DNA from: Kiloniellaceae bacterium
Lineage (GTDB): Bacteria; Pseudomonadota; Alphaproteobacteria; Kiloniellales; Kiloniellaceae
Length of the DNA: 55,498 nucleotides
Assembly (NCBI GenBank): GCA_021776195.1
Contig: JAJFGK010000114.1
Location: forward strand, 1 to 55,498
Direction: 5' to 3'
Both the position numbers and the translations under genes were made by a program. Shown here one piece after another: positions 5,164 to 52,043 of the stretch. Within the stretch, counting starts at the first letter, position 1. The number at the start of each line of letters is the position of its first letter. The notes beneath the pieces are model-generated. The model did not search any database. It was not told the DNA's origin and worked only from the letters and a program-made list of their open reading frames with translations.

Positions 5164-5239
5164 TGGTGACCCCAACGGGATTCGAACCCGTGTTGCCGGC
5201 GTGAAAGGCCGGTGTCCTAGGCCTCTAGACGATAGGGTC
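5164..5239 (-). tRNA. tRNA-Glu (TTC)
   Basis: Reading the minus strand from 5239: a 7-bp acceptor (GACCCTA with TGGGGTC, one G-U pair), D-arm, anticodon stem CCGGC/GCCGG with loop CTTTCAC (anticodon TTC), T-arm ACGGGTTCGAATCCCGT, discriminator A and encoded CCA. All arms pair. Its 3' end faces the accessory island at lower coordinates, the usual orientation of an integration site. Confidence 0.97.
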
Positions 5240-45911: not shown

Positions 45912-46295
45912 CTAGTCCAGGATGTTGACGCAACTGCCGCCTTCGCAGCCCCCGCCGGGATCGATCACGGTATCCGTGTGACGGCCGCCGCCACCGCCGC
46001 CACCGCCCCAGCCACCGGGGTTGGCGGATTGCTGGCCATATCCCCCGCCGCCAAGAGACAGCGGCACGGAATTGCCGTAACCGTCATAGAGGTACTGCCC
46101 ATCCCAGGCATAGGCGCCACCGTGCAGGCTGACGCCGGTCGCCTGTTGAATCTGCATCACGACGGTCGGATGGACTGGCTGCCCGTTGATGAACACCTGT
46201 TGATGACCGCCCTGGGCCGGAACGCTGGCAAGGCTGAGCGTTGCGATGAGGGCGGCGACGATCAAGCCGGATTTCAAGGGGGACGGAAAACTCAT
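45912..46295 (-). CDS. Small secreted Gly-rich protein
   Basis: 127 residues; not a family I recognise. A signal peptide (about 1-28, ending V-P-A-Q). The mature part has a short domain with Q-Q-V-F-I-N-G-Q and a Y-A-W-D-G-Q-Y-L-Y-D motif, then a Gly-rich stretch and two cysteines near the end (G-C-E-G-G-S-C) that could form a disulfide. Exported; role unknown. Confidence 0.6.
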   Translation of the reverse strand: MSFPSPLKSGLIVAALIATLSLASVPAQGGHQQVFINGQPVHPTVVMQIQQATGVSLHGGAYAWDGQYLYDGYGNSVPLSLGGGGYGQQSANPGGWGGGGGGGGRHTDTVIDPGGGCEGGSCVNILD

Positions 46296-46636
46296 TGCTG
46301 GTCTCCTTTTGAACAGGGGCCGTTCACCGGGAGCCTGGACGGCGAGTTTTCTGGGACCTGTTTAAAATGTCCATTTGAAATGGGCGCACTCTTTGTTCGG
46401 CTCAAACCCACGCGCCGCTCTGCACCGTAAAACTTCTAGCACCCGAACTCGTGGGTTCATGCGGCCGTCCAGGCCAGTGACAGATTACGATGGATGGATC
46501 CTCGCACAGACCGAAAGCTGAAGAAGTGATAGCCATCACACCTTTCTGAAATCGCCCCTGGCATCGCCCCTGACATCGGCGCCCGACCGACACAAAGCAG
46601 ATGACATGACGGGCCTCGGCGTGTATGCCTGGGCGC
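46296..46636. other. Intergenic region before the DAHP synthase leader
   Basis: No gene seen. It contains a 13-base palindrome CCATTTGAAATGG (46371-46383), which could be an operator, and two tandem 12-base repeats (46551-46574). The promoter of the leader must lie here, but no strong -35/-10 pair stands out. Confidence 0.4.
46551..46574. repeat. Two 12-base tandem repeats
   Basis: ATCGCCCCTGGC is followed directly by ATCGCCCCTGAC (one difference). Read on the minus strand the unit GATGCCAGGGGC resembles the repeats at 37186 and 14326. Confidence 0.7.
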
Positions 46637-46717
46637 ATGACCCAGCCGTTCGCCGCTTTTTCGATCTTTTTTGGCTATCCGGGCCCACAGGCGGACGGAG
46701 GGGATCGTATGTTCTAA
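46637..46717 (+). CDS. Phenylalanine-rich leader peptide of the DAHP synthase attenuator
   Basis: A 26-residue open frame whose residues 5, 8, 11, 12 and 26 are Phe and residue 14 is Tyr. It ends 27 bases before a perfect intrinsic terminator and 87 bases before the DAHP synthase ATG. The cluster of Phe codons lies between the protector and antiterminator strands (see the attenuator entry), the standard arrangement for ribosome-mediated attenuation. The ribosome binding site is weak (CCTGGG upstream). Its role is as a sensor of charged tRNA-Phe, not as a functional protein; this is inferred from layout. Confidence 0.8.
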   Translation: MTQPFAAFSIFFGYPGPQADGGDRMF

Positions 46718-46770
46718 ACTCGATAGACAAACGACACCGAACCAACCGCCAGCTCTCTGGCGGTTTTTTT
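46646..46770 (+). promoter_or_regulatory. Transcription attenuator (protector/antiterminator)
   Basis: Four pairing strands are visible. Strand 1, CCGTTCGCC (46646-46654), pairs fully with strand 2, GGCGGACGG (46690-46698), with one G-U. Strand 2 can instead pair at 7 of 9 positions with strand 3, CCAACCGCC (46742-46750). Strand 3 otherwise forms the terminator with strand 4. A ribosome stalled at Phe codons 8-12 would cover strand 1 and free strand 2, so strand 3 is captured and the synthase is transcribed. Confidence 0.8.
46744..46770 (+). terminator. Intrinsic terminator of the attenuator
   Basis: AACCGCCAG (46744-46752) and CTGGCGGTT (46757-46765) form a perfect 9-bp stem with loop CTCT, followed by T-run to 46770. 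It lies upstream of the gene, not after one. Confidence 0.92.
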
Positions 46771-46804
46771 GTGGCCGCCGGGAGCCTGACAAAGGAACCC
46801 GACG

Positions 46805-47869
46805 ATGACGATACTCACCGACGATCTGAGAATCCGGAAAATTAGGGAACTGGTCTCCCCGGAGACCCTGCTGGACGGCATTCCCGCGACCGCGTCCGCG
46901 ACCAGAACCGTGCAGAGCAGCCGGGACGCCATCCACCAGATCCTGAACGGAGAGGACGACCGCCTGCTCGTGGTGATCGGCCCCTGCTCGGTTCACGATC
47001 CCCAGGCAGCCCTCGACTACGCCCGGCGCCTTGCCGCCATCCGCCGCGAGCTTGCCGGCACGCTGGAAATCGTGATGCGGATCTACTTCGCCAAGCCCCG
47101 CACCACGATTGGCTGGAAGGGGCTGATCAACGACCCGCACCTCGACAGCTCTTTCGATATCAACAGCGGTCTCGGAACGGCGCGCAAGCTCTTGGCCGAA
47201 GTCAACGAACTCGGTGTGCCGGCCGGCTGCGAGTTCCTGGACACGACGGTACCGCAGTACATCGCCGATCTCGTCGGTTGGGCCGCCATCGGCGCGCGCA
47301 CGACCGAAAGTCAGGTTCACCGAGAGTTGGCCTCGGGTGTGTCCTGCCCCGTCGGCTTCAAGAACAGCACCGCAGGGGACGTGAAAATCGCCATCGACGC
47401 CGTGCGGTCGGCCGCCCATCCGCATCATTTCATGGCGGTCACGAAGAACGGCCGCTCGGCCATAGCCGAGACCACGGGCAACGCCGACTGTCACGTGATC
47501 CTGCGCGGCGGGGTAACGCCCAACTACGATGCCGCATCAGTGGACGCCGCCTGCCGGGCGGCGGAGGCATCGGGCATACGCGGTATTGTCATGATCGACA
47601 CCAGCCATGCCAACTCCGGCAAGAAGCCGGAAAACCAGCCGCTGGTCGCCCGGAACATCGCGGCGCAGATAGCCGGCGGCGAAGACCGTATTCTCGGGCT
47701 GCTGATCGAGAGCAATCTGGTTGCCGGGCGCCAGGACCTGGGCAGGGGGCCGCTGACCTACGGTCAGTCCATCACCGACGGCTGCATCGACTGGGACAGC
47801 TCGGTGGCGCTGCTGCACGATCTGGCCGAGGCCGTTACGGCTCGGCGCCGCGCAGCCGGTTCGCGATGA
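46805..47869 (+). CDS. aroG: Type I DAHP synthase (AroG-like)
   Basis: 354 residues. 3-deoxy-7-phosphoheptulonate synthase condenses phosphoenolpyruvate with erythrose-4-phosphate, the first step of the shikimate pathway. The type I core is clear: L-L-V-V-I-G-P-C-S-V-H-D-P, K-P-R-T-T-I-G-W-K-G-L-I-N-D-P, G-A-R-T-T-E-S-Q-V-H-R-E and metal-binding C, H, E, D positions. The N-terminus (T-D-D-L-R-I-R-K-I-R-E-L) keeps the two Asp of the Phe-binding site of E. coli AroG, and the overall match is closer to AroG than AroF. Control by Phe at both enzyme and RNA level is therefore likely. Confidence 0.93.
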   Translation: MTILTDDLRIRKIRELVSPETLLDGIPATASATRTVQSSRDAIHQILNGEDDRLLVVIGPCSVHDPQAALDYARRLAAIRRELAGTLEIVMRIYFAKPRTTIGWKGLINDPHLDSSFDINSGLGTARKLLAEVNELGVPAGCEFLDTTVPQYIADLVGWAAIGARTTESQVHRELASGVSCPVGFKNSTAGDVKIAIDAVRSAAHPHHFMAVTKNGRSAIAETTGNADCHVILRGGVTPNYDAASVDAACRAAEASGIRGIVMIDTSHANSGKKPENQPLVARNIAAQIAGGEDRILGLLIESNLVAGRQDLGRGPLTYGQSITDGCIDWDSSVALLHDLAEAVTARRRAAGSR

Positions 47870-47968
47870 TGGGGTCACGGTTTCATTGGCGGCGCAAACC
47901 CGCTAGCTTTTATTGGGGCGAACACAAGTCTTCCGGGAAATCCCTGCTCGGCAAACATGAGGTTGGAC

Positions 47969-48511
47969 ATGCCGCTGCGTCGGTTGTTGTGTCTGGTGGC
48001 GTTCTTGGTCGTCTGTTGGTCGGACGCGGCCCAGGCCGAGACCCGGATCGAGGACTTCTTCGGAGTCTACAAGGGCGAGGGAGTTGCCAGCGATCACTTC
48101 GGCCAGTTCATCCGCAGCAAGCGCGACTTCGAGCTGACCATCGGCCCCCTGCCCGGCGGCGGCTTCGAGGTCGCCTGGTCCACGGTCAAGCGCAAGGGCA
48201 GCGATCCCGAGGCGTTGGAGACCGAGGTATCGAAGCACAGGGCGCGGTTTCGGCCATCCAACCGGTCCGGGGTGTTCCAGGATGTCGAAAACGGGATAGC
48301 CTTCGGGCCTGGCCCGATCACCTGGGCCCGACTCGAGGAAAAACTTCTGGTGGTCTATCGCATGGAAATCGACGGTGACGGCGTGGGAGAAATGCACGTC
48401 TATCAGCGCAGGCTGACCGCCGAGGGACTGGAGCTGTTGTTTACCGCGACCCGTGACAACACCCAGGTCCGCTCGGTCCGTGGCAGCTACCGAAAGCAGA
48501 AGAGCCGCTAG
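47969..48511 (+). CDS. Secreted hypothetical protein
   Basis: 180 residues from the ATG at 47969 (GAGG upstream); an in-frame ATG 12 bases earlier is possible. A signal peptide ends A-A-Q-A at about residue 23. The mature part begins with I-E-D-F-F-G-V-Y-K-G-E-G and alternates short strands, resembling small lipocalin-like periplasmic proteins. Family not identified. It stops directly before a GNAT remnant. Confidence 0.65.
   Translation: MPLRRLLCLVAFLVVCWSDAAQAETRIEDFFGVYKGEGVASDHFGQFIRSKRDFELTIGPLPGGGFEVAWSTVKRKGSDPEALETEVSKHRARFRPSNRSGVFQDVENGIAFGPGPITWARLEEKLLVVYRMEIDGDGVGEMHVYQRRLTAEGLELLFTATRDNTQVRSVRGSYRKQKSR

Positions 48512-51965: not shown

Positions 51966-52043
<78 letters not shown>

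Follow-up and report, generated by a model that had tools for sequence, protein, structure and literature searches.

A putative, Phe-biased aromatic attenuator ahead of a class I DAHP synthase gene in a Kiloniellaceae bacterium and its relatives

Aromatic amino acid synthesis begins with DAHP synthase, which acts as the tap of the shikimate pathway; in E. coli it is held in check by feedback inhibition besides repression by TyrR. The locus described here raises the question of how this tap is governed elsewhere: in the window (our name for the whole stretch of DNA analysed, 55,498 nucleotides from a Kiloniellaceae bacterium) an aromatic-rich reading frame and an intrinsic terminator lie upstream of a DAHP synthase gene, aroG. 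We believe that this gene is very probably controlled by ribosome-mediated transcription attenuation, through a leader that would be translated from a leaderless message and would, in this organism, sense mainly Phe. Attenuation of aroG is well supported because of the conservation of the leader, its linkage to the gene, the position of the promoter-like elements and the covariation of the RNA strands. One branch of DAHP synthases would then carry an RNA switch, as against the combination of TyrR repression and feedback inhibition seen in E. coli.

The DAHP synthase gene and the architecture of its leader

The first-pass annotation of this DNA placed a DAHP synthase gene downstream of the leader, and rightly so: the TIGR00034 score of its product (Table 1) far exceeds the curated cut-off of 173.2, making it a class I enzyme, whilst its 521.4 bits against the AroG equivalog NF006723 stay below that model's cut-off of 568. 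The closest AroG relatives belong to Kiloniellaceae and Pelagibius (85% for locus L001, 76-79% for L002-L005). At the allosteric position of E. coli AroG Ser211, which is Gly in AroF and might hint at Phe versus Tyr sensitivity, the enzyme of the window has Ala, and the residue gives no verdict (the 44 enzymes of the leader-bearing branch have Ala in 28 cases, Ser in nine and Asp in seven). Two proteins without a Pfam or NCBIfam match flank the locus, both with a signal-like start: a small Gly-rich one encoded divergently from aroG (45912-46295, minus strand) and one of 184 amino acids just 3' of it (47957-48511, plus strand).

Table 1. Coordinates of the features at the aroG locus, in window positions
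Feature	Positions	Strand	Evidence
-35-like hexamer ATGACA	46601-46606	+	conserved TGACA at fixed distance in relatives
-10-like hexamer TATGCC	46624-46629	+	3/6 to TATAAT; 17 nt after the -35-like hexamer, 7 nt before leader ATG
Putative leader peptide ORF MTQPFAAFSIFFGYPGPQADGGDRMF	46637-46717	+	ATG at 46637, stop TAA at 46715-46717, 26 aa; sequence and kind kept in relatives
Strand 1 (anti-antiterminator 5' arm) CCGTTCGCC	46646-46654	+	9/9 pairs with 46690-46698
Candidate sensor codons Phe5, Phe8, Phe11, Phe12, Tyr14	46649-46678	+	codon count; the Trp and one Tyr codon of L001 replaced here
Strand 2 (partner of strand 1 or strand 3)	46688-46698	+	core GGCxG shared by all 34 rows of alignment A1
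Predicted antiterminator hairpin	46690-46750	+	outer helix 46690-46694:46746-46750, leader stop codon in apical part
Strand 3 (terminator 5' arm)	46744-46752	+	pairs 9/9 with 46757-46765; covariation
Strand 4 and T run, intrinsic terminator	46757-46770	+	9/9 stem 46744-46752:46757-46765
Shine-Dalgarno-like AAAGGA of aroG	46791-46796	+	sequence
aroG, class I DAHP synthase (AroG/AroF/AroH family), controlled gene	46805-47869	+	TIGR00034 510.1 bits; PF00793 287.7 bits

The leader ORF has the 26 residues first attributed to it, including five Phe (codons 5, 8, 11, 12 and 26) and one Tyr (codon 14). Phe codon 26 sits beyond strand 2, where it is not expected to help the switch—a point against an attenuator—and the sensor part of the leader, ahead of strand 2, holds four Phe, one Tyr and no Trp. 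The arrangement of leader and terminator is real: when the 508-nt intergenic region was dinucleotide-shuffled 2000 times, an equal aromatic uORF (by a density of five F, W or Y in ten residues) arose 24 times and an equal terminator three times, never both in order, and a chance ORF beside a chance terminator is rejected on this count.

Turning to the strands of the RNA, the nine pairs claimed for 1:2 are present, strand 1 facing the segment GGCGGACGG (46690-46698) with one G-U pair, as are the nine pairs of 3:4 that run into the T stretch. The 2:3 pairing, put at seven of nine, has to be corrected; we count six of seven (CAGGCGG:CCGCCAG), equal to six of the nine positions in that register, with an A-A mismatch. 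The antiterminator that we predict is also longer than the one first proposed: it gains two more GG:CC steps, and the stop codon of the leader lies within an apical stem. Its segment has a predicted stability of -23.8 kcal/mol (z -4.3), greater than that of the terminator (-14.7 kcal/mol) and close to that of the segment that extends from the AUG through strand 2 and holds 1:2 (-25.9 kcal/mol); folded in its entirety, the leader hardly stands out (z -1.62, with 15 of 200 shuffles as good). The locus, as predicted, combines three of the features by which an attenuator is recognised: a leader ORF with end-product codons, a terminator, and a 2:3 pairing mutually exclusive with it.

Immediately after strand 2 there is a Shine-Dalgarno-like GGAGG, seen in the window (within 46695-46717) and in relatives and largely conserved, with A63, G64 and G65 near-invariant in alignment A1; the window's copy precedes the codons ATG TTC TAA in the frame of the leader. 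It may have a role in the antiterminator, through the GG:CC steps, or in ribosome pausing.

Upstream of the leader, the motif TGACA is found 42-27 nt before the ATG in 54 of 58 alphaproteobacterial leaders, against a mean of 0.59 and a maximum of 4 of 58 when the 60-nt stretches are shuffled. A scan over spacers of 15-19 nt, with ties resolved in favour of 17 nt, places the best -10-like hexamer (three to five matches in six) at a 17-nt spacer in 50 of these 54, and it ends 6-8 nt before the ATG in 49 of the 50. The window's own -10-like hexamer is a poor one, with three matches in six, and this counts against the attenuator. Given a conserved hexamer pair at a fixed distance from the AUG, transcription would be expected to start at or next to it, probably within a base or two, so yielding a leaderless mRNA; a start downstream of 46690 seems unlikely, the conserved pair ending 7 nt before the AUG. 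Caulobacter is described as having many leaderless mRNAs (375; PMC4117421), and the trpL leader of Sinorhizobium meliloti, another alphaproteobacterium, is described as belonging to one (PMC10117765).

Conservation, covariation and descent of the leader

An aromatic-rich uORF precedes 77 of 80 related aroG loci, with a start 165-245 nt ahead of the AroG match (our script took the ATG nearest the aromatic cluster); amongst the 80, L046 and L075 are without a leader and L042 has only a weak leader, with a terminator. The leader-bearing loci include those of Bradyrhizobium, Mesorhizobium, Devosia, Leisingera, Duganella and Bordetella, amongst others. The automatic scan called a terminator in 70 of the 80, that of L053 being poor; eight of the ten loci in which none was called are Leisingera-type, and an interrupted stem is visible by eye in the three of these eight that were inspected (L024, L029 and L038). 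One leader-bearing contig (L054) is labelled Mycobacterium sp. KBS0706; its aroG is of alphaproteobacterial type and groups with G069 and Kaistia, and the label is probably wrong.

How far does the element reach beyond these loci? A covariance model (R1), built from the 34 leaders of alignment A1, was searched against 142 evenly drawn alphaproteobacterial genomes, only four of which have a class I AroG above cut-off, a reason for caution over how widely the switch occurs. R1 scores at least 89 bits in the same four genomes and in no others, each time 49-54 nt upstream of the AroG match, with a best score elsewhere of 30.3 bits; one of the four (G001) was part of the training set and the other three were not. 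At E up to 1, some match is present in 84 of the 142 genomes, and those listed outside the four reach at most 30.3 bits and fall mostly at the terminator end of the model. The possibility that the element is general genome sequence is rejected, scores of at least 89 bits being confined, in the 142 genomes, to the region upstream of class I AroG. Within the family of G001 (nine genomes) a single genome has an AroG above cut-off, and the leader is found in that one.

The picture differs in Gammaproteobacteria. An AroG above cut-off is present in 106 of 143 genomes from the class to which G155 belongs, whilst three give an R1 match at E 1e-5, in every case immediately before aroG, in a search whose strict first filter may lose weak cases and whose class includes one training genome, G155. 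A terminator was called in none of the 29 scorable loci upstream of gammaproteobacterial aroG (30 were fetched, as the best-scoring matches and not a random draw), and L134 and L152 have a uORF with five aromatics in nine residues and no terminator; the idea that every class I AroG gene has the leader is rejected on the 0 of 29. In two genomes (G160 and G156) one AroG paralogue has the leader (L115 and L116) and the other lacks it (L121 and L122); a terminator was called in L116, and in L067, the counterpart of L115, but not in L115 itself.

We then placed these observations on a tree of 78 AroG rows: 44 with a leader (the window, 40 of the 77 related loci and three from the alphaproteobacterial survey), 33 without and one weak. 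On this tree, obtained by a quick method with SH-aLRT support and no bootstrap, and with L121 and L122 on long branches, the leader trait needs two changes, as compared with a shuffled mean of about 25. All leaders fall on one branch (SH-aLRT 97), which holds the 44 together with the two leaderless loci L046 and L075 and the weak L042. On this distribution, the leader seems to have accompanied one AroG branch, by descent or by transfer, through alpha-, beta- and some gammaproteobacteria. The earlier reading, of a different control logic in the lineage of the window, gives way accordingly to one in which the device belongs to an AroG branch spanning these classes.

With regard to the strands, aligned relatives keep the Phe codons, the terminator and the cores of strands 2 and 3, as the first-pass annotation would lead one to expect, and only weakly keep the 1:2 pairing (73.2% of cells paired across A1, against 71.3% in shuffles, 48 of 500 of which were as high; slid versions reach at most 59.1%). 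The terminator stem shows double changes in three of its nine pairs within A1 (12 cells; as many cells in 0 of 500 shuffles, as many pairs in 3 of 500). The 2:3 pairing has an invariant core there and no double changes in the 34, mainly alphaproteobacterial, rows; its share of paired cells is 83.5%, compared with 82.4% in shuffles, 52 of 500 of which equal or exceed it, and with no more than 60.6% in slid versions. Across the wider set of 78 leaders, the neighbours of the GGCGG core do co-vary in strands 2, 3 and 4: on one flank the combination is T-A-T in 44 and A-T-A in 12, and on the other C-G-C in 24 and T-A-T in 17. Strands 2 and 3 pair at one flank in 56 of the 78 and at the other in 46, values not reached in 2000 shuffles; these controls, like the others, keep the relatedness of the sequences in, so that the counts include kinship.

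The outer helix of the predicted antiterminator (at least four pairs) is part of the minimum free energy structure in all 72 distinct leaders, with a mean z of -2.66 and 50 of the 72 below -2, for segments whose ends were set at the core motifs, a choice that favours the outer helix; inner pairs enclose the leader stop codon in 72 of 72. The inner part, enclosed by strands 2 and 3, folds more weakly (mean z -0.93, ten of 72 below -2).

Sensor codons and the proposed switch

Which amino acid would such a leader sense? The five nearest relatives (L001-L005) each have four Phe, one Trp and two Tyr codons in the sensor part. The leader of the window differs from that of L001 by nine substitutions in 81 nt, and four of the nine fall within the 6 nt that encode Trp-Tyr in L001. 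Phe and Tyr codons are both present in the sensor parts of all 78 leaders, joined by Trp in 63, with totals ahead of strand 2 of 248 Phe, 185 Tyr and 71 Trp. Examples include FAAFWYFFSYPG (L001), SYFWYFSY (Bradyrhizobium), AAFWYFFYPR (Leisingera), FYFYFYGF (L067, Bordetella) and FFFTTYFYF (L044, Oxalobacteraceae). The lack of Trp is not unique to the window, since two of three further alphaproteobacterial leaders are also without it (L093 and L095, with start codons chosen by the analyst); Trp is likewise missing in many Oxalobacteraceae leaders and in Bordetella. Phe is written differently in leaders and genes, as TTT 172 times and TTC 76 times in the former and as TTT 26 times and TTC 412 times in the aroG genes.

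The name 'phenylalanine attenuator', given at first, thus suits the copy in the window and does not suit the family: with four Phe, one Tyr and no Trp in the former and mixed codons in the latter, the device is, on codon content, an aromatic attenuator that is Phe-biased in the window. It might still be argued that Phe, Tyr and Trp are sensed alike and that the window's copy is not truly Phe-specific, as its Tyr codon would still count; the family-wide presence of Phe with Tyr, the 63 leaders with all three kinds of codon and the retention of Tyr14 would all fit. We judge this rather unlikely, if deserving of attention, in view of the make-up of the window's own sensor part and the clustering of four of the nine substitutions at the Trp-Tyr of L001; furthermore, Phe and not Tyr availability is said to matter for the Phe-Tyr-Phe leader aroR of Corynebacterium glutamicum, in what PMC11802643 relates of it. 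Should a Phe-biased attenuator be the correct reading, the codon mix of a leader would reveal the aromatic amino acid to which each cell attends, and lineages with unlike mixes would constitute a natural experiment on the evolution of sensor specificity.

We envisage the switch as follows. With charged tRNA-Phe plentiful (mainly Phe, to some extent Tyr), the ribosome would run through the leader; strand 2 would then be taken up by strand 1, and the ribosome arriving at the stop codon would sit within the would-be antiterminator. The 3:4 terminator would thereby form and aroG would not be transcribed. When Phe is short, the ribosome would stall at codons 5-12 (46649-46672) and cover strand 1, leaving strand 2 to pair with strand 3, such that the terminator is blocked and aroG is expressed. 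In E. coli trpL it is the finishing ribosome that masks strand 2. Such masking is less likely here because the leader stop codon lies about 20 nt past the core of strand 2; the 1:2 pairing, together with disturbance of the apical stem, is the likelier route to termination.

The long C-terminal tail of the leader is conserved, and the same bacterial class and the same apparent leaderless layout are found in S. meliloti, where rnTrpL and peTrpL reportedly act in trans; the uORF might in like manner serve additionally in trans, with the terminated leader RNA or the peptide regulating other genes. As conservation of the tail is explained by strand 2 of the RNA, we hold this to be highly improbable. 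Least credible of all is a constitutive terminator next to a chance ORF, with aroG driven by a downstream promoter of its own: a promoter-like match (nine of twelve) does occur 3' of the terminator at 46786-46815, but it overlaps the aroG start codon and could not serve the whole gene, and the conservation and linkage of the leader, the covariation of the strands and the shuffles of the intergenic region (0 of 2000) all speak against it.

Taking attenuation as the preferred reading, we tentatively suggest a wider one, which we would not yet call probable: that a single ancestral unit of leader and gene, a Phe/Tyr/Trp attenuator on one branch of class I DAHP synthase, was handed down or transferred and took on varied forms in alpha-, beta- and some gammaproteobacteria, where it would control shikimate entry at the level of transcription, perhaps replacing TyrR. 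Its codons would have been re-tuned by lineage, in the window through replacement of the Trp codon and a Tyr codon present in all five nearest relatives, leaving a leader that reads mainly Phe. Its message would be leaderless, and its antiterminator would enclose the stop codon, where the finishing ribosome would contribute to opening the hairpin.

Comparison with known systems

The mechanism itself is classical. The pheL-pheA system of E. coli has a Phe-rich leader, competing hairpins and a terminator, all of which it shares with the window; it differs in controlling pheA and not a DAHP synthase. The thr and ilvGMEDA leaders, in which a single leader senses several amino acids, are alike in this multiple sensing and belong to other pathways. 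Nor is attenuation of a DAHP synthase gene new, having reportedly been found by Neshat et al. (2014) for aroR-aroF of C. glutamicum. As PMC11802643 presents it, the leader peptide aroR (Phe-Tyr-Phe; the leader also appears in PMC4046766) precedes aroF, transcription of which rises on Phe limitation. Compared by description only, this system resembles ours in that a DAHP synthase gene follows a leader peptide with aromatic codons, and differs in coming from an actinobacterium and in that most proteobacterial leaders add Trp codons.

A second comparison, again by description only, is with uORFC-13-1 ahead of Acholeplasma aroF (PMC8632094), where a uORF with at least one Phe codon directly precedes a terminator and a DAHP synthase gene; that family is described from 24 sequences, of Acholeplasma and environmental origin only. 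An old hypothesis of attenuation for E. coli aroF is cited in PMC8632094 and PMC2659441. For E. coli aroG, the contrast drawn in the first-pass annotation stands: the gene is repressed by TyrR, and by GcvB, in the account of PMC11878033, which also names the pheA attenuator. The S. meliloti trpL-trpE(G) system, as far as it is described in PMC10117765, likewise involves a leaderless leader mRNA in an alphaproteobacterium, and differs in sensing Trp only and in the gene controlled.

We found no description of a proteobacterial aroG leader family in the open-access papers searched, and an earlier mention elsewhere is possible. The main text of Naville and Gautheret (PMC2965389) contains no 'DAHP', 'aromatic' or 'phenylalanine', and that of the S. 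meliloti small-protein census (PMC10117765) no aroG or aroF. What the present analysis would add is the inheritance of the leader with its gene on a single branch, a sensor of mixed Phe/Tyr/Trp content with a Phe bias in the window, and a probable leaderless start. Amongst Rfam families, the nearest at the leader is Phe_leader (RF01859), with 16.7 bits against a gathering score of 55 (E 2.1). At gathering scores the window yields no match at the leader and two tRNA genes only, at 5167-5239 and 51969-52043, both on the minus strand (RF00005).

Finally, other DAHP synthase genes came to light. Each of the five Kiloniellaceae and Pelagibius relatives searched (G001-G005) has one class II DAHP synthase (PF01474; L086-L090), and no aromatic leader with terminator was seen by eye upstream of any of these five; the attenuated class I enzyme is therefore the second of two in G001-G005. 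In one genome of the class of G155 (G212), two class I DAHP synthase matches stand in tandem, 55 nt apart (contig C127, 14432-15463 and 15519-16499).
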